Shown here: piece after piece, positions 21,963 to 30,318 of the stretch
Numbering within the stretch: the first letter of the stretch is position 1
How the letters are laid out: the number at the start of each line of letters is the position of its first letter
From: Streptomyces flavofungini
GTDB taxonomy: Bacteria > Actinomycetota > Actinomycetes > Streptomycetales > Streptomycetaceae
Assembly (NCBI RefSeq): GCF_030388665.1
Contig: NZ_CP128846.1
Location: forward strand, 7,970,001 to 8,034,000
DNA length: 64,000 nt
Direction: 5' to 3'
The notes under the pieces: generated by a model
The model's database searches: none
The model's input: the letters and a program-made list of their open reading frames with translations, nothing else
What the model was told of the DNA's origin: nothing
Translations under genes and position numbers: made by a program

Positions 21963-22016
21963 TCTGGTCGCCCGGGTAGGATCGACTTCTTTGTCCGGAC
22001 CGCAGGAAGGCTCTCG

Positions 22017-22793
22017 ATGCCCTGGTCAGCCCACTCCGCCGTCGTGACACGGCTGCGCGCCGCGGGCTGCGTGTTCGCGGAGGACGAGGCGGACCTGCTG
22101 CTCGCCGCAGCCGACGACCCGGACCAGCTGGACGCCATGGTGGCGCGCCGGGTGAGCGGGCTTCCGCTGGAACACGTCGTCGGGTGGGCCGAGTTCGCCG
22201 GGCTGCGCGTCGCCGTCGACCCGGGCGTCTTCGTGCCGCGCCGCCGCACCGAGTTCCTGGTCCGCGAGGCGGCCTCGCTCGCCGGACCCGGCGCCCTGGT
22301 CGTCGACCTGTGCTGCGGCTCGGGCGCGCTCGGCGCCGCGCTCGCCGCCGCCCTCGGGGGCGTCGAACTGCACGCCGCCGACATCGACCCGGCCGCCGTG
22401 GCCTGCGCCCGCCGCAATGTCGCCGCCGCCCTGGGGCACGTGCACGAGGGCGACCTCTACGAAGCGCTGCCCGGCCGCCTCCGGGGCCGTGTCGACGTAC
22501 TGCTCGCGAATGTCCCGTACGTCCCGACCGGCGAGGTCGCCCTGCTGCCCGCCGAGGCCCGCGAGCACGAGGCGCGGGTGGCCCTCGACGGGGGTGCGGA
22601 CGGCCTCGACGTGCTGCGGCGGGTGACCGCGGACGCGCCGCGGTGGCTGGCGCCGGGCGGGCGGCTCCTGTTCGAGACGAGTGAACGGCAGGTGCCGTCG
22701 GCGGTCGAGGCCGTCGGGGCGGCGGGGCTCGTGCCGGGAGTGGTCAGGGACGCGGAGCTCCACGCGACCGTGGTGGTGGGGGAGGCGGCGTAG
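22017..22793 (+). CDS. Putative protein N5-glutamine methyltransferase (PrmC/HemK-like)
   Basis: A 258-residue SAM methyltransferase. AGGAAGG lies 6 bp before ATG 22017. An N-terminal helical domain (~1-60) is followed by PRRRTEFLV, the SAM motif VVDLCCGSGALGAAL (~93-107), ADIDPAA, and NVPYVP (~163) in the place of the NPPY motif of PrmC. This Val substitution occurs in an actinobacterial subgroup. The substrate (release factor glutamine or another) is thus uncertain. Confidence 0.85.
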   Translation: MPWSAHSAVVTRLRAAGCVFAEDEADLLLAAADDPDQLDAMVARRVSGLPLEHVVGWAEFAGLRVAVDPGVFVPRRRTEFLVREAASLAGPGALVVDLCCGSGALGAALAAALGGVELHAADIDPAAVACARRNVAAALGHVHEGDLYEALPGRLRGRVDVLLANVPYVPTGEVALLPAEAREHEARVALDGGADGLDVLRRVTADAPRWLAPGGRLLFETSERQVPSAVEAVGAAGLVPGVVRDAELHATVVVGEAA

Positions 22794-22830
22794 GGCGCGG
22801 CGGCTCCCTGTTCGTACGGGGCGACCCGGC

Positions 22831-23019
22831 TCAGCCCACGCGCTGTATCACCGCCGCGTCGAAGAGGTCCAGGGCGCGCGGGAAGGGGCCCTCGTCGTGG
22901 CAGTGCCAGGCGTCCCAGAACAGGTCGGCGGGCAGCGCGTCCGCGGGCGCGTACACCCGGTACACGTACTGTCTGCCGTCGATGGCCAGGAGGGCGACCA
23001 TCCAGCACCTGCTTTCCAT
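22831..23019 (-). CDS. Small conserved hypothetical protein
   Basis: A 62-residue protein, MESRCWMVALLAIDGRQYVYRV then APADALPADLFWDAWHCHDEGP. ATG 23019 has AGAGG just upstream. Residues are of mixed, non-shadow composition (W, F, Y, H rich) and codon third positions are GC. Function unknown. It is divergent from the Clp-N gene. Confidence 0.6.
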   Translation of the reverse strand: MESRCWMVALLAIDGRQYVYRVYAPADALPADLFWDAWHCHDEGPFPRALDLFDAAVIQRVG

Positions 23020-23208
23020 GCCTCTGACAGACGAGCGCCGGTGTGTGACGGTTGCGCACCCGGCGTGAAGCAAGGCGGCGCGCGCCCCACCAGGGGAAAC
23101 AGTCAGATGTCATCCGTAAGGAGGACAACCTGTTCGGCCATCCCCAACCTGTGTCGGACGGAGAAATGCTTCCCGCCGCCGATGCCTCGGCCCTTGGAGG
23201 CTGATGGG

Positions 23209-23760
23209 GTGGGGGATGTGCAAAGCCGTTCCCCCCAGGGCGCCGAACCCGGCCCGAACCGAGCAGACATCGAATCCAGCCTGAGTGCGGCGCTGGCCTC
23301 GGTGGTGGCCGGCGCGCGCCGCCGGGCCGTGCGCGACGGGGACCGGCAGGTCGACACCGCCCATCTGCTGCACTCGCTCCTGGAGCAGGAGCCGCGTGTG
23401 CGGTCCGTCTTCGACGGCGGCCCGCAGATCGCGCGGCTGCTCGGCTATCTCGTCCAGCGCAGCATCGGCTACGGGCTGCAGTGGCAGGGCACCGTCGAGG
23501 ACTCCGGGGCCGTGCCACTGGTGGCGGCGGCCAAAGAAACGGTTCTCTCGCCCGCGGCCGCCGGTGCCATGGAAGCCGCGTCCGACCGCGCCGTGCTGCG
23601 CGGGCAGCCGCAGGCCGAGGGCGTCGACCTGCTCGCGGCCCTGGCCGCCGACACCGAGTGCCGGGCCGTCGAGGTGCTGCGGCGCGCGGGCGTGGACGTG
23701 GACGCGCTGCTGTCGCGGATCGAGAACGGGTGCGAGACGGGGTGCGAGTCCGGCTGGTGA
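23209..23760 (+). CDS. Clp N-domain (substrate-binding repeat) protein
   Basis: A 183-residue protein from GTG 23209 (GGAGG 8 bp upstream); ATG 23182 is an in-frame alternative. It has two ClpA/B N-terminal-type repeats (~20-85 and ~100-170): DTAHLLHSLLEQEPRVRSVF and GVDLLAALAADTECRAVEVL. There is no AAA+ ATPase domain, so it may be an adaptor or stand-alone peptide binder. Role inferred from domain only. Confidence 0.78.
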   Translation: MGDVQSRSPQGAEPGPNRADIESSLSAALASVVAGARRRAVRDGDRQVDTAHLLHSLLEQEPRVRSVFDGGPQIARLLGYLVQRSIGYGLQWQGTVEDSGAVPLVAAAKETVLSPAAAGAMEAASDRAVLRGQPQAEGVDLLAALAADTECRAVEVLRRAGVDVDALLSRIENGCETGCESGW

Positions 23761-23853
23761 GCCGGGGCGCCCGAAGCTCCCGCCGGTGTCCGCTGTCCGC
23801 CGGTTGAGACAGTGGTCAAAGAGGGTGACGGTCATGACGTCGCCTGTCATCAT

Positions 23854-24900
23854 GTGCCGGTGCTTGGGTCTGAGAAGTCGCACGGGAACCCGCCGGGCCG
23901 TGCGCGGGGGAACCCACGGGGGCGTGCCGAGCGCGGGCGGGGGCTCGGCCTCGGCCTCGCGCTCCTCTCGGCGTGCGCGTTCGGCGGCTCGGGCGTCGCG
24001 GCCAAGCCGCTGATCGAGGCAGGCCTCGACCCGCTGCACGTGGTGTGGCTGCGGGTGGCCGGTGCGGCCCTGGTGATGCTGCCGCTCGCCTGGCGCCACC
24101 GCACGCTGGTGCGGCAACGCCCCGCCCTGCTCGCGGGCTTCGGGCTCCTCGCCGTCGCCGGTGTGCAGGCCTGCTACTTCGCCTCGATCTCCCGCATCCC
24201 CGTCGGCGTGGCCCTGCTCGTCGAGTATCTGGCGCCCGCCCTCGTCCTCGGCTGGGTGCGCTTCGTGCAGCGCAGGCCCGTCACCAAGGCCGCGGCGTTC
24301 GGCGTGGTCCTCGCCGTGGGCGGCCTGGCCTGCGTCGTCGAGGTGTGGTCGGGCCTGAGCTTCGACACCGTCGGGCTGCTGCTCGCGCTCGGCGCCGCCT
24401 GCTGCCAGGTCGGCTACTTCGTCCTGTCCGACCAGGGCAGCGACGCGGGCGAGGCGGCACCCGACCCGCTCGGCGTCATCGCGTACGGGCTGCTGGTCGG
24501 CACGGCCGTGCTCACCGTCATCGCGCGCCCCTGGGGCATGGACTGGCAGGTGCTCGCCGGGAGCGCCGACATGGACGGCTCGGCGGTGCCCGCCTGGACC
24601 CTCATCGGCTGGATCGTGCTCGTCGCCACCGTCATCGCGTACGTCACCGGGATCGTGTCGGTGCGCACGCTCTCGCCGCAGGTCGCGGGCGTCGTGGCAT
24701 GCCTGGAGGCGGTCATAGCGACCGTGCTCGCCTGGGTCATGCTCGGCGAACGGCTCTCGGCTCCGCAGCTCGCAGGGGGCGCCATCGTCCTGGTGGGCGC
24801 GTTCATCGCCCAGTCGGCGACGCCCGCGAAGAAGGAGGGCTCCGCGGTGCGCGTCTCAGAGTCCGAAGAGGAGTTGTCACCGAGCGGCAGCGCCGCCTAG
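23854..24900 (+). CDS. EamA/DMT family transporter (exporter)
   Basis: A ~348-residue permease with ten hydrophobic helices in two EamA repeats (~35-165 and ~180-320). Motifs LVEYLAPALVLGWVRF and VVACLEAVIATVLAWVMLGE are typical of the RhtA-like amino-acid/metabolite exporters. The start is uncertain (GTG 23854 chosen; GTG 23812 and 23860 possible). Its last ~30 codons contain the promoter of the downstream leader peptide and second EamA gene, so the two are adjacent but separately controlled. Confidence 0.82.
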   Translation: MPVLGSEKSHGNPPGRARGNPRGRAERGRGLGLGLALLSACAFGGSGVAAKPLIEAGLDPLHVVWLRVAGAALVMLPLAWRHRTLVRQRPALLAGFGLLAVAGVQACYFASISRIPVGVALLVEYLAPALVLGWVRFVQRRPVTKAAAFGVVLAVGGLACVVEVWSGLSFDTVGLLLALGAACCQVGYFVLSDQGSDAGEAAPDPLGVIAYGLLVGTAVLTVIARPWGMDWQVLAGSADMDGSAVPAWTLIGWIVLVATVIAYVTGIVSVRTLSPQVAGVVACLEAVIATVLAWVMLGERLSAPQLAGGAIVLVGAFIAQSATPAKKEGSAVRVSESEEELSPSGSAA

Positions 24901-24903
24901 GGT
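24874..24903 (+). promoter_or_regulatory. Promoter TTGTCA-N18-TAGGGT inside the end of the first EamA gene
   Basis: -35 TTGTCA (24874-24879) and -10 TAGGGT (24898-24903) with an 18-bp spacer. The predicted start at ~24910 coincides with the ATG of a 13-codon leader ORF, so the message would be leaderless. Confidence 0.7.
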
Positions 24904-24910
24904 GGCGATC

Positions 24911-24952
24911 ATGCACGCACGAGCGCTCGTCCTTCCGCCTCCCGCCGCCTAG
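24911..24952 (+). CDS. Probable regulatory leader peptide (13 residues) for the second EamA exporter
   Basis: ATG CAC GCA CGA ... GCC TAG encodes MHARALVLPPPAA. It begins 7 bp after a -10 box and ends 24 bp before a GC-rich hairpin; the next gene starts 186 bp later. The run Leu-Val-Leu-Pro-Pro-Pro is noteworthy: Leu/Val codons are typical of branched-chain amino-acid leaders and Pro triplets slow ribosomes. A control role by attenuation is inferred from architecture only. Confidence 0.6.
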   Translation: MHARALVLPPPAA

Positions 24953-24976
24953 CGCGCGGGCCTCTCACGGATCACG

Positions 24977-24993
24977 CCCGGCCGTCGGCCGGG
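24977..24993 (+). terminator. Attenuator-like hairpin after the leader peptide
   Basis: CCCGGCC-GTC-GGCCGGG, perfect 7-bp stem with 3-nt loop. An alternative pairing CGGGC (24957-24961) with GCCCG (24976-24980) would disrupt it. A second hairpin with 9 bp and a 2-nt bulge follows at 25063-25086 (CACCC-ACAG / CTGT-AC-GGGTG). Confidence 0.55.
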
Positions 24994-25138
24994 TGGGCGG
25001 TGCTGCCCGCGGACGCCAGTCCAGGACCTGCGTCACCGGGCCTCCTCCCCGGCGTGCCCACGCACCCACAGCTCTCTGTACGGGTGCCGGTGCGCCCGTG
25101 ACGCGGTCTTCCTCCTGAACCTCTGCGGAGAATTCCAC

Positions 25139-26137
25139 GTGTCGAGCGTGTCAAGCATGTCGAACGCGTCCACCGCGTCGACCGATTCAACTGCCGTGTC
25201 CCGCCTCTCTGTCCGGCGCGGCCTCCTCTACCTGGGCATCGCCGGTGCCGCCTGGGGCACCGCCGGAGCCGCCGCGTCGCTGGTCTTCTCGGACAGTGAC
25301 ATGGGGCCCGTCGCCCTCTCCTTCTGGCGCTGCGCCGGAGGGTTCCTGCTCCTTCTCGGCGCACGGGTCGCGCGGCCGCGCCGGGGCGCGCGCTTCGGGG
25401 CCGTGCTGCCGCTCCGCCGCCGGGTGCTCCGGGTCACCGCCATCGGCGTGACCCTCGCCGTCTTCCAGACCGCCTACTTCGCCGCCGTCGAGGCCACCGG
25501 GCTCGCCGTCGGCACCGTCGTCACGCTCGGCGCGGGGCCCGTTCTCATCGCGCTCGGCGCCCGACTCGCCCTGGGTGAGCGGCTCGGATTCGGGGGCGGC
25601 TGCGCGGTGGGCGGCGCGCTCGCCGGACTCGTCGTGCTGTTCGTCGGCGGCGGGGACGCGGCGGTCCGCCCCTGGGGTGTCGCCTTCGCCCTGGTGTCGG
25701 CTGCCGGGTACGCCGTCATGACGCTGCTGACCCGGTGGTGGGGACGCGACGGCGGGACGGACTCCTCCGGCGACACGACGATGTGGGCCTTCGCCGTCGT
25801 GTCCGTGTGCCTGCTGCCGCTCGCCGCCGCCGAGGGCCTCGTGCCGCACACGGCCGAACCCGCGCGCGTGCTGGCCTGCTTGTTCTACATCGCCGCGGTG
25901 CCGACGGCTCTCGCGTACGCGCTGTACTTCGCCGGGGCCGCCGTCGTCCGGTCCGCGACCGTCTCCGTGATCATGCTTCTGGAGCCGGTGAGCGCGGCCG
26001 CCATCGCCGTCGCCCTGCTCGGCGAGGAACTGAACACGGCGACCGTCGTGGGCACGCTGCTCATGCTGGCGGCGGTCACGGGGCTCGCCGGGGCCGAGGC
26101 ACGAGGCGCCTCGCGGGGGCAGAGGGAGGGGGCGTGA
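25139..26137 (+). CDS. EamA/DMT family transporter behind a leader peptide
   Basis: A 332-residue permease with ten helices in two EamA repeats (~25-160, ~175-310), e.g. [37 protein letters not shown] region and [24 protein letters not shown] 25139 follows CGGAGAATTCCAC. Probably exports amino acids or related metabolites. The 238-bp leader upstream carries its own promoter, a short ORF and two hairpins, implying attenuation by substrate or translation status. Confidence 0.87.
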
Positions 26138-26338
26138 CGGGATAGGGGAGGCGGACGGGGCGTGCCGCGCGGGGGCGTGCCGCCTGGCGGCCGCCCCGTC
26201 GGCCCGCGCCCCCGCGAGCCCCACCCTCGCCCGCGAGCCCCGCCCCCGGCTCGCCCGCGCGAGCTCCGTCCCTCGCCCGGGCGAGCCCCCGCCTCCGCCC
26301 GCGCCCCGCCCGCCTTCGCTTCTCCCGCCCGGCCCCGG
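26138..26338. repeat. CpG-rich intergenic region with CTCGCCCGCGAGC repeats
   Basis: A 200-bp convergent space of almost pure G/C with several CGCGAGCCCC/CTCGCCC variants and a perfect 14-bp palindrome CTCGCCCGGGCGAG at 26272-26285. No gene seen. Probably terminates both flanking genes. Confidence 0.5.
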
Positions 26339-26990
26339 CTACTTCGCCGCGCGCCCCTCCAACTGGTGGGCCAGCGCGGCCGCGTCACGCGGGCCGCCGC
26401 GCTCCTTCAGGCCCGCCGCTATCCGGTCCTGCACCTCCAGCGGCTTGTGGTGGGCGTACTTGAACTTCGCCTGTACGTCGACGACGTCGAGGCACACCCC
26501 CCCGGATCCCGGCGAGCAGCCGGCCGAACGGCTCCTCGCCCACGGCCGTCCGCGCCGAGCCCCCGTCGGGCTGGAAGTGGCCGACCTGGCGGTTCAGGAG
26601 CTCGGCCTTCTCGGCGGGGTCGTCCACGATCCGGGCCGTGCAGTGGAGCTGGACGGCGGCGTAGAAGCTGGTCGGAACGCCGTGCTCGGGCAGGGCTTCG
26701 GGGGCGGCGCCCCACGGACCCGGCACGAAGACGTAGTCGTCGACCACGCTCAGGACGACGTGCGCGTTCGCTTCCAGGGCCGCCCACAGCGGGTTCGGGC
26801 GCGCCAGGTGGAGCAGGACGCGGCCGCGCGGGCCGGTGTCGGCGTCGTACACGAAGTGCGTGGGCTGGATGTGCGGCGGCTCGCCGGGCAGGCCGTTCAC
26901 GGCGAGCTGCCCGAAGTCGTGCTGGGCCAGCCATCGTCGCCACTCGGTGTCGGAGGCGGGCGCGTCCCAGGGGTGGACGAGCAGCACCAC
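26339..26990 (-). pseudogene. FMN-binding split-barrel protein (PaiB type), frameshifted
   Basis: From GTG 26990 the first ~165 residues (VVLLVHPWDAPASD, QPTHFVYDAD, YVFVPGPWG, EEPFGRLLAGIRG) are a normal PaiB-like FMN-binding regulator. The frame then breaks at a run of seven C (26497-26503); removing one restores the family C-terminus VCLDVVDVQAKFKYAHHKP to a TAG at 26339-26341. Everything else is intact, so this is either a phase-variable or recent mutation, or a homopolymer sequencing error. It begins one base after the upstream gene's TGA, so the two are one operon. Confidence 0.8.
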
Positions 26991-26991
26991 G

Positions 26992-27693
26992 TCAGGCCTT
27001 CAGCAGATAGTCGGGCACGGCGACGCCGGGGGCGAGGTCCGCCGCCGGGATGACGGGGTCGTAGCCCTTGCGGAGCGGGACGACACCGGACCAGTAGGGC
27101 AGCTCCAGGTCCTCCGGCTCGTCGCTCGGGGCGCCCGTGCGCATCTTCGCCGACACCTCTTCGAGGTCGAGGTACAGCACGGCGGTCGCGGCGAGCTCCT
27201 TGGCGTTGGCGGGGCGGGAGTCGGCGGCGCGGCCCGGCACCACGTGGTCGACCAGGGAGTCCAGGGCGGTGCGCTTCTCCTCGGGGTCCGTGACCTGACG
27301 CGCGATGCCGTGCACCACCACGGAGCGGTAGTTGATGGAGTGGTGGAAGGCCGAACGGGCCAGGACGAGACCGTCGACATGGGTGACCGTCAGGCAAACC
27401 GGAAGACCCGGGTCCGCCTCGCCGTCCGGTGCGGAACCCGCCATCCGCAGGGGCCGCGACCCCGTCGAGCCGTGTACGTAGAGACGCTCGCCGACCCGGC
27501 CGTACAGCGTCGGCAGGACCACGGGGGCGCCGTCGCGCACGAAGCCGAGGTGGCAGACGTAGGACTCGTCCAGTATCGCGTGCACCAACTCGCGGTCGTA
27601 CGCGGCGCGGTCGCGGGACCGCGTGGGGACGGTGCGGTCGGTCGGGGTGTAGGGGGCGCTGTCCGGCGCGGCCGGCTGCGTCGTCGTCTCCAT
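26992..27693 (-). CDS. Pyridoxamine 5'-phosphate oxidase family (FMN split-barrel) protein
   Basis: A ~233-residue FMN/F420-type split-barrel flavoprotein. ATG 27693 has GGAGAAGG 2 bp upstream; ATG 27705 is alternative. Motifs YVCHLGFVRDGAPVVLPTLY, YVHGSTGSRPLR and FHHSINYRSVVVHG. Close homologues occur beside MocR regulators, and here a MocR gene is divergent with a palindrome between, so activation by that regulator is likely. Downstream it is coupled to the frameshifted PaiB gene. Confidence 0.85.
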   Translation of the reverse strand: METTTQPAAPDSAPYTPTDRTVPTRSRDRAAYDRELVHAILDESYVCHLGFVRDGAPVVLPTLYGRVGERLYVHGSTGSRPLRMAGSAPDGEADPGLPVCLTVTHVDGLVLARSAFHHSINYRSVVVHGIARQVTDPEEKRTALDSLVDHVVPGRAADSRPANAKELAATAVLYLDLEEVSAKMRTGAPSDEPEDLELPYWSGVVPLRKGYDPVIPAADLAPGVAVPDYLLKA

Positions 27694-27745
27694 GGCCTTC
27701 TCCATCGCTTCGCGGACCTGAGGGTCGGGGGCGTCTTGCTGCGCC

Positions 27746-27774
27746 TTGCCGACGCTTTTGCACTAGTGCATAAT
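27746..27774 (+). promoter_or_regulatory. MocR promoter with palindromic operator TGCACTAGTGCA
   Basis: -35 TTGCCG (27746-27751), 17-bp spacer and -10 CATAAT (27769-27774). The perfect 12-bp palindrome TGCACTAGTGCA at 27759-27770 fills the spacer and touches the -10, an ideal place for autorepression. The start would fall near GTG 27782. The divergent flavoprotein gene begins 66 bp away. Confidence 0.7.
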
Positions 27775-27781
27775 GTTCTTT

Positions 27782-29113
27782 GTGCTAGGAGACTATCCGA
27801 TCGAAGGGCGCGGCGCAGCAGAGATCGCGTCGAGCGTCGAGCGCGCGGTGAGCGGCGGTGCGCTGGAGCCCGGCCAATCGCTGCCTCCGATGCGGGAGTT
27901 GGCGGTTCTGCTGGGCGTCAATCCCAATACGGTCGCGGCGGCGTACCGCACTCTGCGCGAGCGGGGCGTGATCGAGACGGCCGGCCGGCGCGGCAGTCGC
28001 GTCCGCAGCAAGCCCGCCACGACGGCCCGTGACTACGTCCGCCTCGACGTGCCGCCCGGCGTGCGCGACGTGTCGAGCGGCAATCCGGACACGGCCCTGC
28101 TGCCGCCCCTCGCCCGGGCGTTCGCGGTGGCCGCTGCCCAGTCGGACCGGGCTCCCGCGCTGTACGGGGAGGCGCCGGTGCTGCCGGAGTTCCAGCGCCG
28201 CGCGCGTGCGGCGCTGGACGCGGACGGGGTGCCGGACGGGCCCGTCGCCCTCGCGTCGGGGGCGTTGGACGCCATCGAGCGGGTGCTCGCCGCGCGCCTC
28301 AGGATGGGCGACGCGGTGGCCGTGGAGGACCCGGGGTGGGGGAGCGTGCTCGACCTCGTGTCGGGGCTCGGGCTCCGGCCGGTCCCGGTCGGGGTGGACG
28401 ACGACGGGCCGTTGCCCGACGACGTGGAGCGGGCGCTCCGGTCCGGCGCGCGGGCCCTGGTCGTCACCAGCCGCGCCCAGAACCCGACGGGGGCCGCCAC
28501 GGGAGCCGCACGCGCGCGTGCCGTGCGCCAGGTCCTGGCCGCGCACCAGGACACGCTCGTCGTCGAGGACGACCACGGCCACGGCATCGTCGACCTGCCG
28601 CTGCACACGCTGGCCGGAGCCACGCGCGCGTGGGCCTTCGTCCGCTCCACCGCCAAGGCCTACGGCCCGGATCTGCGGCTCGCCGTGCTCACCGGCGACG
28701 CGGAGACGGTCGACCGGGTGCAGGGGCGGATCAGCCTGGGGCCCGGGTGGGTCAGCAAGGTGCTCCAGCGGGCCGTCGTATGTCTCTGGGAGGACGGGGT
28801 GGTGGACGCGCGGGAGGTGTCGGCTGCGTACGGACGCAGACGTGACGCACTGATCGACGCGCTCGCCGCGCGCGGGGTCGCGGCCCGCGGGCGCAGCGGG
28901 ATGAACGTGTGGGTGCCGGTGCCGGACGAGACCGGCGTGGTCGCGAGCCTGCTGCACGCGGGCTGGGCGGTGTCGCCCGGCGCGCGGTACCGCCTGGATT
29001 CGCCCCCGGGGGTGCGGATCACCGTGTCCGGGCTGTCCGGCGAGGACATCGACGCGGTGGCCGCCGCGGTCGCGGCGGCTGTCGGGCCGGTGCCCGCGCG
29101 GAGGTACGGCTGA
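27782..29113 (+). CDS. MocR-type regulator (GntR winged helix fused to PLP aminotransferase fold)
   Basis: A 443-residue protein. GTG 27782 fits a leaderless start; ATG 27773 overlaps the -10. The GntR domain (~5-75) contains LPPMRELAVLLGVNPNTVAAAYR. The fold-type I aminotransferase domain (~95-440) has SRAQNPTGAA and the presumed PLP lysine in STAKAYGPDLRLA (~Lys294). MocR proteins sense PLP or amino adducts. Divergent flavoprotein genes of the pyridoxamine-oxidase fold are the likely target. Confidence 0.9.
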   Translation: MLGDYPIEGRGAAEIASSVERAVSGGALEPGQSLPPMRELAVLLGVNPNTVAAAYRTLRERGVIETAGRRGSRVRSKPATTARDYVRLDVPPGVRDVSSGNPDTALLPPLARAFAVAAAQSDRAPALYGEAPVLPEFQRRARAALDADGVPDGPVALASGALDAIERVLAARLRMGDAVAVEDPGWGSVLDLVSGLGLRPVPVGVDDDGPLPDDVERALRSGARALVVTSRAQNPTGAATGAARARAVRQVLAAHQDTLVVEDDHGHGIVDLPLHTLAGATRAWAFVRSTAKAYGPDLRLAVLTGDAETVDRVQGRISLGPGWVSKVLQRAVVCLWEDGVVDAREVSAAYGRRRDALIDALAARGVAARGRSGMNVWVPVPDETGVVASLLHAGWAVSPGARYRLDSPPGVRITVSGLSGEDIDAVAAAVAAAVGPVPARRYG

Positions 29114-29243: not shown

Positions 29244-30257
29244 CTAGCTCTTCCGGGGTGCGCGCGGTCGCGGCCTCGACTGCGTGAGTGCCGCGCCCGC
29301 CAGGATGACGACGGCTCCGACAGGCGTCGTCCACGTCAGTGACTCGCCGAGCACCGCCACCCCCGCCGCCGTCGCGATGACCGGGACGAAGTACGTGACC
29401 ATCTGCGCCGTCGTCGGTCCGACCTCGGCGACGATGCCGTACTGGATCAGGAACGCGATGCCCGTGCCGAGTGCGCCCAGGGCGACGATGGCGAGCAGTG
29501 GCACCACCGGGAGGTGGGACGGCGCGGACGTGAACAGGGGCGTCACCACGGCCAGTTCGAGCGTGGCCACGAGGAGCTGTGCGCCCGAGAGGGAGAGGTT
29601 CGAGTGGCCGGAGCCCGCCAGTGTGCGGCGGACGTAGATCCAGCCGATCGGATAGCTCAGGGAGGCGAGCAGCGCCATCGCCGTGCCGCGCGGCTCCAGG
29701 TCGCTGAAGCCCTGCCAGGCGCCGAGCACCGTGAGCACCCCGACGAAGCCGAGCGCGAGCCCCGCGACCCGGCGCCGCGTCGGACGGTCCTCGGAGAGCG
29801 CGGCGAGCGAGAGGACCATGCCCCACAGCGGCGACGTCGCGTTGCAGATCCCCGCGAGCGTCGAGGGGATCGTCAGCTCCGCGTAGGCGAAGAGGGAGAA
29901 CGGCAGGGCGTTCAGGAGCAGGGCCGCCACCGTCAGATGGGCCCAGGTGCGCGGGGAGCGCGGCAGCCGCTCGCGCCTGACGACCAGGACGGCCGCGACC
30001 ACCGCCGTGCCGAAGAAGAGCCGTCCGAAGGTGACCTGGAACGGGGCGTACCCCTCCGTGCCGACCTTGATCAGGAGGAAGCTGAAGCCCCAGATCAGGG
30101 ACAGGACGGCGAAGCGGACGCGCCAGTCCAGGGTGCGGCGCCCACCGGTCCGTGCCCGGGGTTCCCGCGCAGGTGGGGTGGGGGTGGTGCGAGGGTCCGA
30201 CGCGGCGGTCGGCTCGGGGGTGGACGTCGGCGCGGAAGGGGCCGCGGAGGTGCTCAT
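29244..30257 (-). CDS. EamA/DMT family transporter divergent from LysR gene
   Basis: A 337-residue permease from ATG 30257 (AAGGTGG site). A ~45-residue Pro/Thr-rich cytoplasmic start precedes ten helices in two EamA repeats (FAVLSLIWGFSFLLIKVGTE, then GTGIAFLIQYGIVAEVGPTT). The divergent LysR regulator 74 bp away probably controls it, a common exporter/LysR arrangement. Substrate unknown. Confidence 0.88.
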   Translation of the reverse strand: MSTSAAPSAPTSTPEPTAASDPRTTPTPPAREPRARTGGRRTLDWRVRFAVLSLIWGFSFLLIKVGTEGYAPFQVTFGRLFFGTAVVAAVLVVRRERLPRSPRTWAHLTVAALLLNALPFSLFAYAELTIPSTLAGICNATSPLWGMVLSLAALSEDRPTRRRVAGLALGFVGVLTVLGAWQGFSDLEPRGTAMALLASLSYPIGWIYVRRTLAGSGHSNLSLSGAQLLVATLELAVVTPLFTSAPSHLPVVPLLAIVALGALGTGIAFLIQYGIVAEVGPTTAQMVTYFVPVIATAAGVAVLGESLTWTTPVGAVVILAGAALTQSRPRPRAPRKS

Positions 30258-30318
30258 GCGAGCCACCTTGAGGCATCCAATGTCTTAGTACAAGCGAGAT
30301 TCTGTGCCCGATATCGCG

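Follow-up and report, generated by a model that had tools for sequence, protein, structure and literature searches.

The window analysed here, a 64,000-nucleotide (nt) stretch of Streptomyces flavofungini (contig NZ_CP128846.1, positions 7,970,001 to 8,034,000), carries two EamA transporter genes in tandem and, between them, a short leader open reading frame (ORF) that probably forms part of a ribosome-controlled attenuator of the second gene. The upstream gene, E1, occupies window positions 23812..24900 on the + strand when taken as the open frame from its first possible start (Pfam EamA, 1.6e-27), and the downstream gene, E2, which starts with GTG, occupies 25139..26137 (Pfam EamA, 2.9e-26); E2 and all features of the leader region described below are likewise on the + strand. 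Each gene contains two Pfam EamA stretches, and the two repeats place E2 among the EamA/DMT-family transporters; a sequence search at E<=0.001 returned no E2 relative of solved structure. The leader ORF, MHARALVLPPPAA-stop (24911..24952), encodes 13 residues, among them a Pro-Pro-Pro run (codons CCG CCT CCC, 24935..24943) whose final two prolines are constant across families and which, from ribosome models, is the predicted stall site.

The initial annotation placed a promoter at the end of E1, and this arrangement, read directly, is as it was described: a -35-like TTGTCA within the 3' end of E1 (24874..24879) is followed after an 18-nt spacer by the -10 element TAGGGT (24898..24903), whose TAG is also the E1 stop codon (24898-24900), and seven bases further on the ATG at 24911, the predicted transcription start, opens a leaderless ORF. 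The -35 motif recurs as TTGTC(A/C/G) in 79 of 92 leader-bearing E1-E2 loci and, by eye, is not visible in some loci without an upstream EamA gene, for example L155. The -10 element TANNNT stands 6-8 nt ahead of the start in 155 of the 156 loci of a wider set (7 nt in 126, 6 in 15 and 8 in 14) and is absent in one. A strict E. coli-type scan for promoters and terminators detected none in the leader region, and the promoter is therefore called from conservation and from the TAnnnT form of the -10 element in Streptomyces. Since S. lividans uses a TAnnnT -10 element and 17% of its transcripts are leaderless (PMC8079986), the A at 24911 is a plausible transcription start.

Four short RNA strands follow from the leader towards E2. 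Strand 1 (24941..24948), at the end of the leader ORF, pairs by folding and alignment with strand 2, the GCGGGC directly after the leader stop (24956..24961), in a hairpin over the stop codon. Strand 3, GCCCGC (25005..25010), has two partners in alignments and folding models, namely strand 2 in the putative expressed (ON) state and the exporter Shine-Dalgarno region in the putative silent (OFF) state, and strand 4, TCTGCGGAGA (25122..25131), read directly, includes the E2 Shine-Dalgarno sequence GGAGA (25127-25131). Between strands 2 and 3 stands the 7-base-pair GC hairpin CCCGGCC-GTC-GGCCGGG (24977..24993) that had been noticed from the start, with changes on both sides in 4/8 pairs across 64 sequences. 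The alternative pairing first proposed for the region (24957-24961 with 24976-24980) is possible, but the partner of GCGGGC that is conserved across families is the GCCCGC at 25005-25010; likewise a second hairpin named at the outset (25063-25086) exists, but among relatives it could be read, by eye, in L033 and L034 alone, the two nearest. The interval between strands 3 and 4 also holds a long hairpin (25028..25106; 25028-25036 paired with 25098-25106) followed by UCUUCCUCCU, a possible weak, U-poor terminator that is found in L033 and L034 as well. A number of Streptomyces have other hairpins at this site, followed by C/U-rich stretches.

Of 392 genomes of the genus searched with E2, 288 matched at E<=1e-60, and the loci fetched from the named collection were the best 80 of the 98 encoding a relative. 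A leader is evident in 92 of the 94 distinct loci that have both E1 and E2; in L086 it is present further downstream with its own TAAAGT, and in L068 E2 lies close behind E1 without a leader. Five loci of other genera (L149, L153, L155, L156 and L159) and those of Glycomyces have the leader next to E2 with no E1 match upstream. The four Glycomyces loci, which lack E1, encode MPLGFLPPPAA (2/4), MGFGISPPAV and MDFGISPPAA; the genus belongs to the order Glycomycetales and Streptomyces to the Kitasatosporales. A class-wide search with the E2 protein matched 36 of 296 genomes at E<=1e-40 and gained two more families, where the leaders include MTPFTVSPPPAR, MSSTVLSPPAA and MTFTALAPPAA, among others, and E2 identity falls to ~43%.

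Covariance models gave a second view of the distribution. Model R1, built from 64 leaders, matched 79 of 249 genomes of the family (E<=0.01, strict filters), and 20 of the matched places were fetched, of which 19 read ...VLPPPA(A/V/R)-stop and the twentieth, L162, MQTFLTPPPPAV-stop; regions fetched through leader-model matches give no test of leader frequency. In the window's own genome R1 found the leader locus alone (E 3e-12), three further matches with E 2-9 being taken as chance. A class-wide run of the broad model R2 matched 49 of 394 genomes, once in each, in families f1, f17 and f18; where a genome had also been searched with the E2 protein, the matches listed sit just upstream of E2. 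R2 missed, at E<=0.01, genomes in which E2 and a leader are recognisable by eye, namely G088 (L192), G192 (L089) and G703 (L197). Locus L162 (G361:C14:108000-110500), in one Streptomyces genome, is a second, diverged E2 copy of ~48% identity; it keeps a leader of its own, and therefore the leader travels with the gene. By sequence comparison, the leader is conserved over Streptomyces, Glycomyces and two further families. Lack of conservation in relatives had been set beforehand as a refuting outcome for the attenuator proposal, which withstands this test.

Because the earlier detectors had demanded prolines, one of them also a GGGC-like motif after the stop, we added a scan blind to proline. 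In each of the 130 distinct loci obtained with the E2 protein it examined the 480 nt ahead of E2 and accepted an ATG or GTG preceded 6-8 nt earlier by TANNNT and opening a frame of 7-24 residues. A qualifying ORF was found in 128/130 loci, Pro-Pro lay within the final six residues in every one of these ORFs (128/128), and no other kind of ORF turned up. The two misses were L068, which is without a leader, and L191, whose leader MHPHVLVLPPPAV was read by eye. ATGs with such a -10 element numbered 122 of 351 in the scanned regions, against 121 of 5133 over the whole + strands of the same loci (many leaders included). The wider set comprises 156 loci with 79 distinct peptides and 75 distinct codon windows; its detector flagged 11 loci as negative for a leader, nine of which do have one by eye (L150, L151, L020, L022, L036, L065, L111, L191 and L197); of the other two, L040 is on the same contig as L022 and L068 is without a leader. 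As the codon-window loci had passed a (P/S/T)PP filter, the invariance of Pro-Pro rests on the blind scan.

The codon windows bear on how the ORF is maintained. Codon positions 1 and 2 of the last two prolines have zero entropy, against 1.4 bits for position 3, and in the three codons ending at the last proline 4210 pairwise differences are synonymous and 536 nonsynonymous (75 codon windows), the pattern of a short ORF under selection as coding sequence, as is looked for in a ribosome-mediated attenuator. The first proline is replaceable by Ser or Ala, and the N-terminal residues and the length of the leader vary; from this variation together with the codon-position pattern, the selected feature of the peptide is Pro-Pro near the stop and not Leu-Val-Leu. 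This distinction bears on the branched-chain half of what the initial annotation had suggested, namely that the Leu-Val-Leu codons sense branched-chain aminoacyl-tRNA. Leu-Val-Leu is present in most of the 92 E1-E2 leaders, and the S. lividans ilvL leader, MRTRILVLGKRVG, is a leaderless leader of equal length (PMC8079986), but Glycomyces, f17 and f18 have lost the motif, as have most of the leaders read in other genera; Leu-Val is absent from MTPFTVSPPPAR, MSSTVLSPPAA and MTFTALAPPAA. Since Leu-Val is lost in other families while Pro-Pro is kept, and a conserved run of Leu, Val or Ile codons is not found, we rejected branched-chain sensing, which is now highly improbable.

The pairing of the RNA strands was compared in two alignments. 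Alignment A1 holds 64 leaders; the other 28 of the 92, in which the strand-3 motif was missing up to 62 nt from the stop, were omitted. Strand 1:2, part of the minimum-energy fold of the window, is paired in 95% of cells (64 sequences), and strand 2:3 in 98.7% of A1 cells. In alignment A3, made up of 43 sequences hand-chosen for diversity (L190 omitted), the consensus structure contains no helix but strand 2:3, in which 99.6% of cells are paired as against 28-63% when slid by 1-3 columns. GCGGGC stands at strand 2 in 137/156 loci, in a set whose detector itself required a GGGC-like motif there; GCGGGC and TGCCCGC are near-invariant and complementary, and in one Streptomyces clade GCGCGC replaces GCGGGC opposite CCGCGCGC. 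Complementarity of strand 3 to strand 4 is seen in most Streptomyces examined and amounts to -12.6 kcal/mol in the window. In several other genera, by eye, a hairpin (GGTCGCC...GGCGACC is one example) instead holds strand 3 in its loop; in L160 TTTTCTTTTCTT comes after it, and across lineages the hairpin arms differ yet still pair.

Two further observations concern these structures. RNAalifold applied to the 64 Streptomyces leaders prefers a helix between the Ala-Leu-Val codons and GGAACGGTGC, which the OFF state would accommodate but which is weak when folding is modelled (0.21 on the free RNA); in the window this alternative long-range helix joins 24924-24931 with 24996-25002, just before strand 3, and has both-side changes in 2/7 pairs. 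In S. aureocirculatus (L036:2560-2731) a 172-bp insertion flanked on both sides by CTAG, with 22-nt terminal inverted repeats that are 86% complementary, lies between the leader stop and strand 2; it parts the leader codons from strand 2 and is a natural disruption of the relay.

The near-invariance of GCGGGC and TGCCCGC would also be expected if conservation of the DNA served only a promoter and an RNA structure, such as a riboswitch-like or protein-binding element, with the ORF incidental. Part of the ORF does base-pair, and pairing with strand 2 is probably one reason why the last two codons are conserved (Ala-Ala in most leaders, Ala-Arg or Ala-Val in others). Such a reading is nevertheless improbable, as variation is codon-periodic with free third positions in the proline codons, the start and stop codons are kept, N-terminal length changes occur in whole codons, and Rfam gave no match, either at the gathering score over 22000-28000 or at E<=1 over 24850-25180. 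A translated leader is thus preferred to an RNA-only element: the leaderless ORF is kept as coding sequence, and mutually exclusive structures overlapping the ORF and the expression platform are found by prediction and comparison, with misfits among divergent loci. The original proposal of an attenuation system holds in this form, as a probable ribosome-mediated attenuator ahead of an EamA gene.

We then modelled folding with a ribosome on the leader, its footprint taken to reach from -14 to +15 relative to the first P-site base; 86, 76 and 63 of 91 loci were used, those with long spacers or without the motif being omitted. In 63 loci, strand 2:3 pairing was 0.10 on the free RNA, 0.45 with the P site at the second proline, 0.12 at the third and 0 at the stop, and strand 3:4 pairing was 0.48, 0.33, 0.50 and 0.53 at the same points. 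In the window alone, a ribosome at the second proline took 2:3 pairing from 0.00 to 1.00 and 3:4 pairing from 0.62 to 0.00. The cost of opening the Shine-Dalgarno sequence was minimal at the second proline (4.49 versus 5.87 kcal/mol free, 86 loci), where it lay below the mean of the Val and last-residue positions in 68/86 loci. When the 3' edge of the footprint was moved from +11 to +17, the peak of the ON helix shifted from the third to the first proline and never left the proline codons. In 23 divergent loci, chosen by eye together with their hairpin arms (6 in Streptomyces, 17 in other genera or families), the terminator-like hairpin had a mean probability of 0.60 on the free RNA, 0.23-0.35 with the P site anywhere from two codons before the prolines through the second proline, 0.63 at the third proline and 0.67-0.68 at the end. 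These models suggest that the 13-residue leader is probably the switch, in that slowing on consecutive prolines would refold the mRNA and turn the exporter on.

Several results weigh against this account. With the middle of the sequence shuffled, the fall in Shine-Dalgarno opening cost at the second proline was 1.27 kcal/mol, compared with 1.37 for the real sequences, and the real fall exceeded all five shuffles in 20 of 76 loci where 12.7 were expected. At three positions, of which the second proline is the middle one, the real falls were 0.38, 1.37 and 0.55 and the shuffled falls 1.20, 1.27 and 1.29; because the shuffles fall equally at the other positions, only the position dependence is specific. 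Strand 2:3 shows no covariation, since it is near-invariant, and Shine-Dalgarno sequestration is weak in L017, L020, L074, L076, L092, L100, L102, L103 and L107. Among the divergent loci, the model gives no switch in L194 and L198, a partial switch only, ahead of the prolines, in L195 and L196, and in L153 and L156 a switch that comes earlier and not at the second proline, and helix 2:3 is already dominant without a ribosome in L100, L103, L164 and L184. The loci are moreover related to one another, so that the counts given here are not independent. The simpler notion that any ribosome on the leader frees the Shine-Dalgarno sequence was discarded, as total release hardly beats the shuffles and only position does.

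The position at which the ribosome would halt also bears on what the leader may sense. In a Pro-tRNA starvation attenuator the ribosome would wait at hungry proline codons and low charged Pro-tRNA would turn E2 on, comparable to mgtP of Salmonella, which responds to proline limitation (PMC3641672). The two consecutive proline codons are the sole residues constant in every leader examined, the window alone gives 2:3 pairing of 0.75-1.00 with the P site anywhere from Val to the third proline, and divergent loci switch at positions before the prolines too. Starvation should, on the other hand, stall most ribosomes with the first proline in the A site, where the averaged Streptomyces model gives 0.09 and no switch; one of the three proline codons is Ser or Ala in several lineages; and E2 is of exporter type with no known tie to proline. 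The averaged Streptomyces model disfavors a stall at the first proline, the one expected of pure Pro-tRNA hunger, but neither the window by itself nor the divergent loci distinguish between the readings. Starvation sensing seems to us unlikely. A ligand-dependent arrest peptide, in which a ribosome-acting small molecule (an antibiotic or the substrate of E2) would stall the ribosome at Pro-Pro and be exported by E2, would suit a leader whose product is a putative exporter, and ribosome-targeting drugs induce another exporter by way of a leader peptide (PMC4191407). The residues ahead of Pro-Pro, which would line the exit tunnel, nevertheless vary widely (79 distinct peptides) and no ligand is indicated, which leaves ligand-dependent arrest an unlikely candidate.

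We therefore favor, with reasonable though incomplete confidence, a cis-acting, ribosome-controlled attenuator of E2 that is induced by a stall on Pro-Pro(-Pro). Sequence and comparison show the ORF, how it is conserved, how the promoter is spaced and which complementary strands are kept; that the leader is transcribed and translated, that the ribosome stalls, which way the switch turns and what signals it are inferred, and the signal may be low EF-P activity, low Pro-tRNA or a ribosome-acting molecule. A leaderless transcript would start at the leader ATG and be translated by a ribosome at once. Were the ribosome to pass the prolines and leave, strand 1 would pair with strand 2 and strand 3 would be free, either to hide the E2 Shine-Dalgarno sequence (strand 4), as proposed for many Streptomyces, or to lie in the loop of a terminator-like hairpin, as proposed for several other genera; both would be OFF. 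A ribosome slowed or stalled on Pro-Pro(-Pro) would instead cover strand 1, strand 2 would pair with strand 3, and E2 would be expressed (ON). Of the ribosome-speed proposal made at the outset, which joined branched-chain aminoacyl-tRNA to EF-P or ribosome inhibition, the EF-P/stalling half fits best and the other half has fallen away.

The proposed relay has counterparts among known attenuators. In erm-type translational attenuators, a 1:2 plus 3:4 arrangement alternates with 2:3 pairing, and the leaders arrest with macrolides; as in erm, a stalled ribosome is proposed here to free strand 2 for strand 3 and so release the Shine-Dalgarno sequence. Unlike erm, the EamA leader has no macrolide motif that we recognized, and in some lineages a terminator-like hairpin takes the place of Shine-Dalgarno hiding. 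The leaders of cmlA and mef also bear on earlier exporter attenuators. The nearest described system appears to be mgtP, a leader of the Salmonella Mg2+ transporter operon mgtCBR in which three proline codons in a row coincide with alternative stem-loops, and one of these stem-loops sequesters the mgtC ribosome-binding site (PMC3641672); mgtC is reported, in PMC5021804 citing another paper, to rise through mgtP when EF-P is reduced. Ribosome profiling of E. coli without EF-P shows pauses at only some Pro-Pro motifs, depending on the residues upstream (PMC4140641). Both the EamA leader and mgtP are short ORFs with three consecutive proline codons over alternative stem-loops, one alternative of which hides (in many Streptomyces EamA loci, is predicted to hide) the ribosome-binding site of the next gene; in both, stalling favors expression (predicted here), and the stem-loops are unlike intrinsic terminators. 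The two differ in that we saw no sequence relation between them and they belong to different phyla; the EamA leader is leaderless whereas mgtP is preceded by a Shine-Dalgarno-like sequence, and the former stands alone before one EamA family whereas mgtP is in a tandem leader with mgtM. Of the features of an mgtP/mgtL-type leader, conserved consecutive proline codons are found (Pro-Pro in 128/128 blind-scan ORFs) and common descent before mgtC/mgtA-type genes is not, the next gene being an EamA transporter. On this comparison, the mechanism is best read as an erm-type relay driven by an mgtP-type stall.

Closer to hand, the S. lividans leaders leuL, ilvL, trpL, thrL and metL resemble the EamA leader in being leaderless short ORFs, several with hairpins and without a clear U-tract, and differ from it in preceding genes for biosynthesis, uptake or tRNA ligases; the 8 leaders listed for S. 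lividans in PMC8079986 do not include the EamA one. The B. subtilis drug exporter BmrC/BmrD is under ribosome-mediated attenuation, and its bmrB leader is, like the EamA leader, a leader peptide of an exporter; unlike it, bmrB controls an ABC exporter, has an intrinsic terminator inside the leader ORF and is induced by protein-synthesis antibiotics (PMC4191407). The statement that no attenuator of this kind had been described for an exporter was, in view of BmrC/BmrD (PMC4191407) and the mgtCBR leader (PMC3641672), too strong. No description of the EamA leader itself was found among the literature matches listed, with subscription papers and preprints outside the search.

Further along the window, a third EamA-like reading frame (29247-30284, - strand) was recognized by eye from its translation. 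Beside it lies a MocR-type regulator (27773-29113, + strand) with GntR and aminotransferase domains, for which the best NCBIfam match, PtsJ, is below the cut-off.

Taken further, and only tentatively, the leader could be a Pro-Pro stall sensor that is old within Actinomycetes and dedicated to one exporter, reading the ease of Pro-Pro bond formation (EF-P status, or inhibition by the exporter's substrate). Its output would have moved in evolution between Shine-Dalgarno hiding and a terminator-like hairpin, with the 2:3 helix and the peptide motif unchanged throughout. Several actinobacterial families would share, in this element, a conserved regulatory leader for which no Rfam entry or literature description was found. 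It would offer a natural reporter of Pro-Pro translation, and its differing outputs among lineages would make a case for how attenuators change their read-out. It would also be a starting point for finding the substrates of this EamA family, as whatever stalls the leader would be a candidate signal or substrate.

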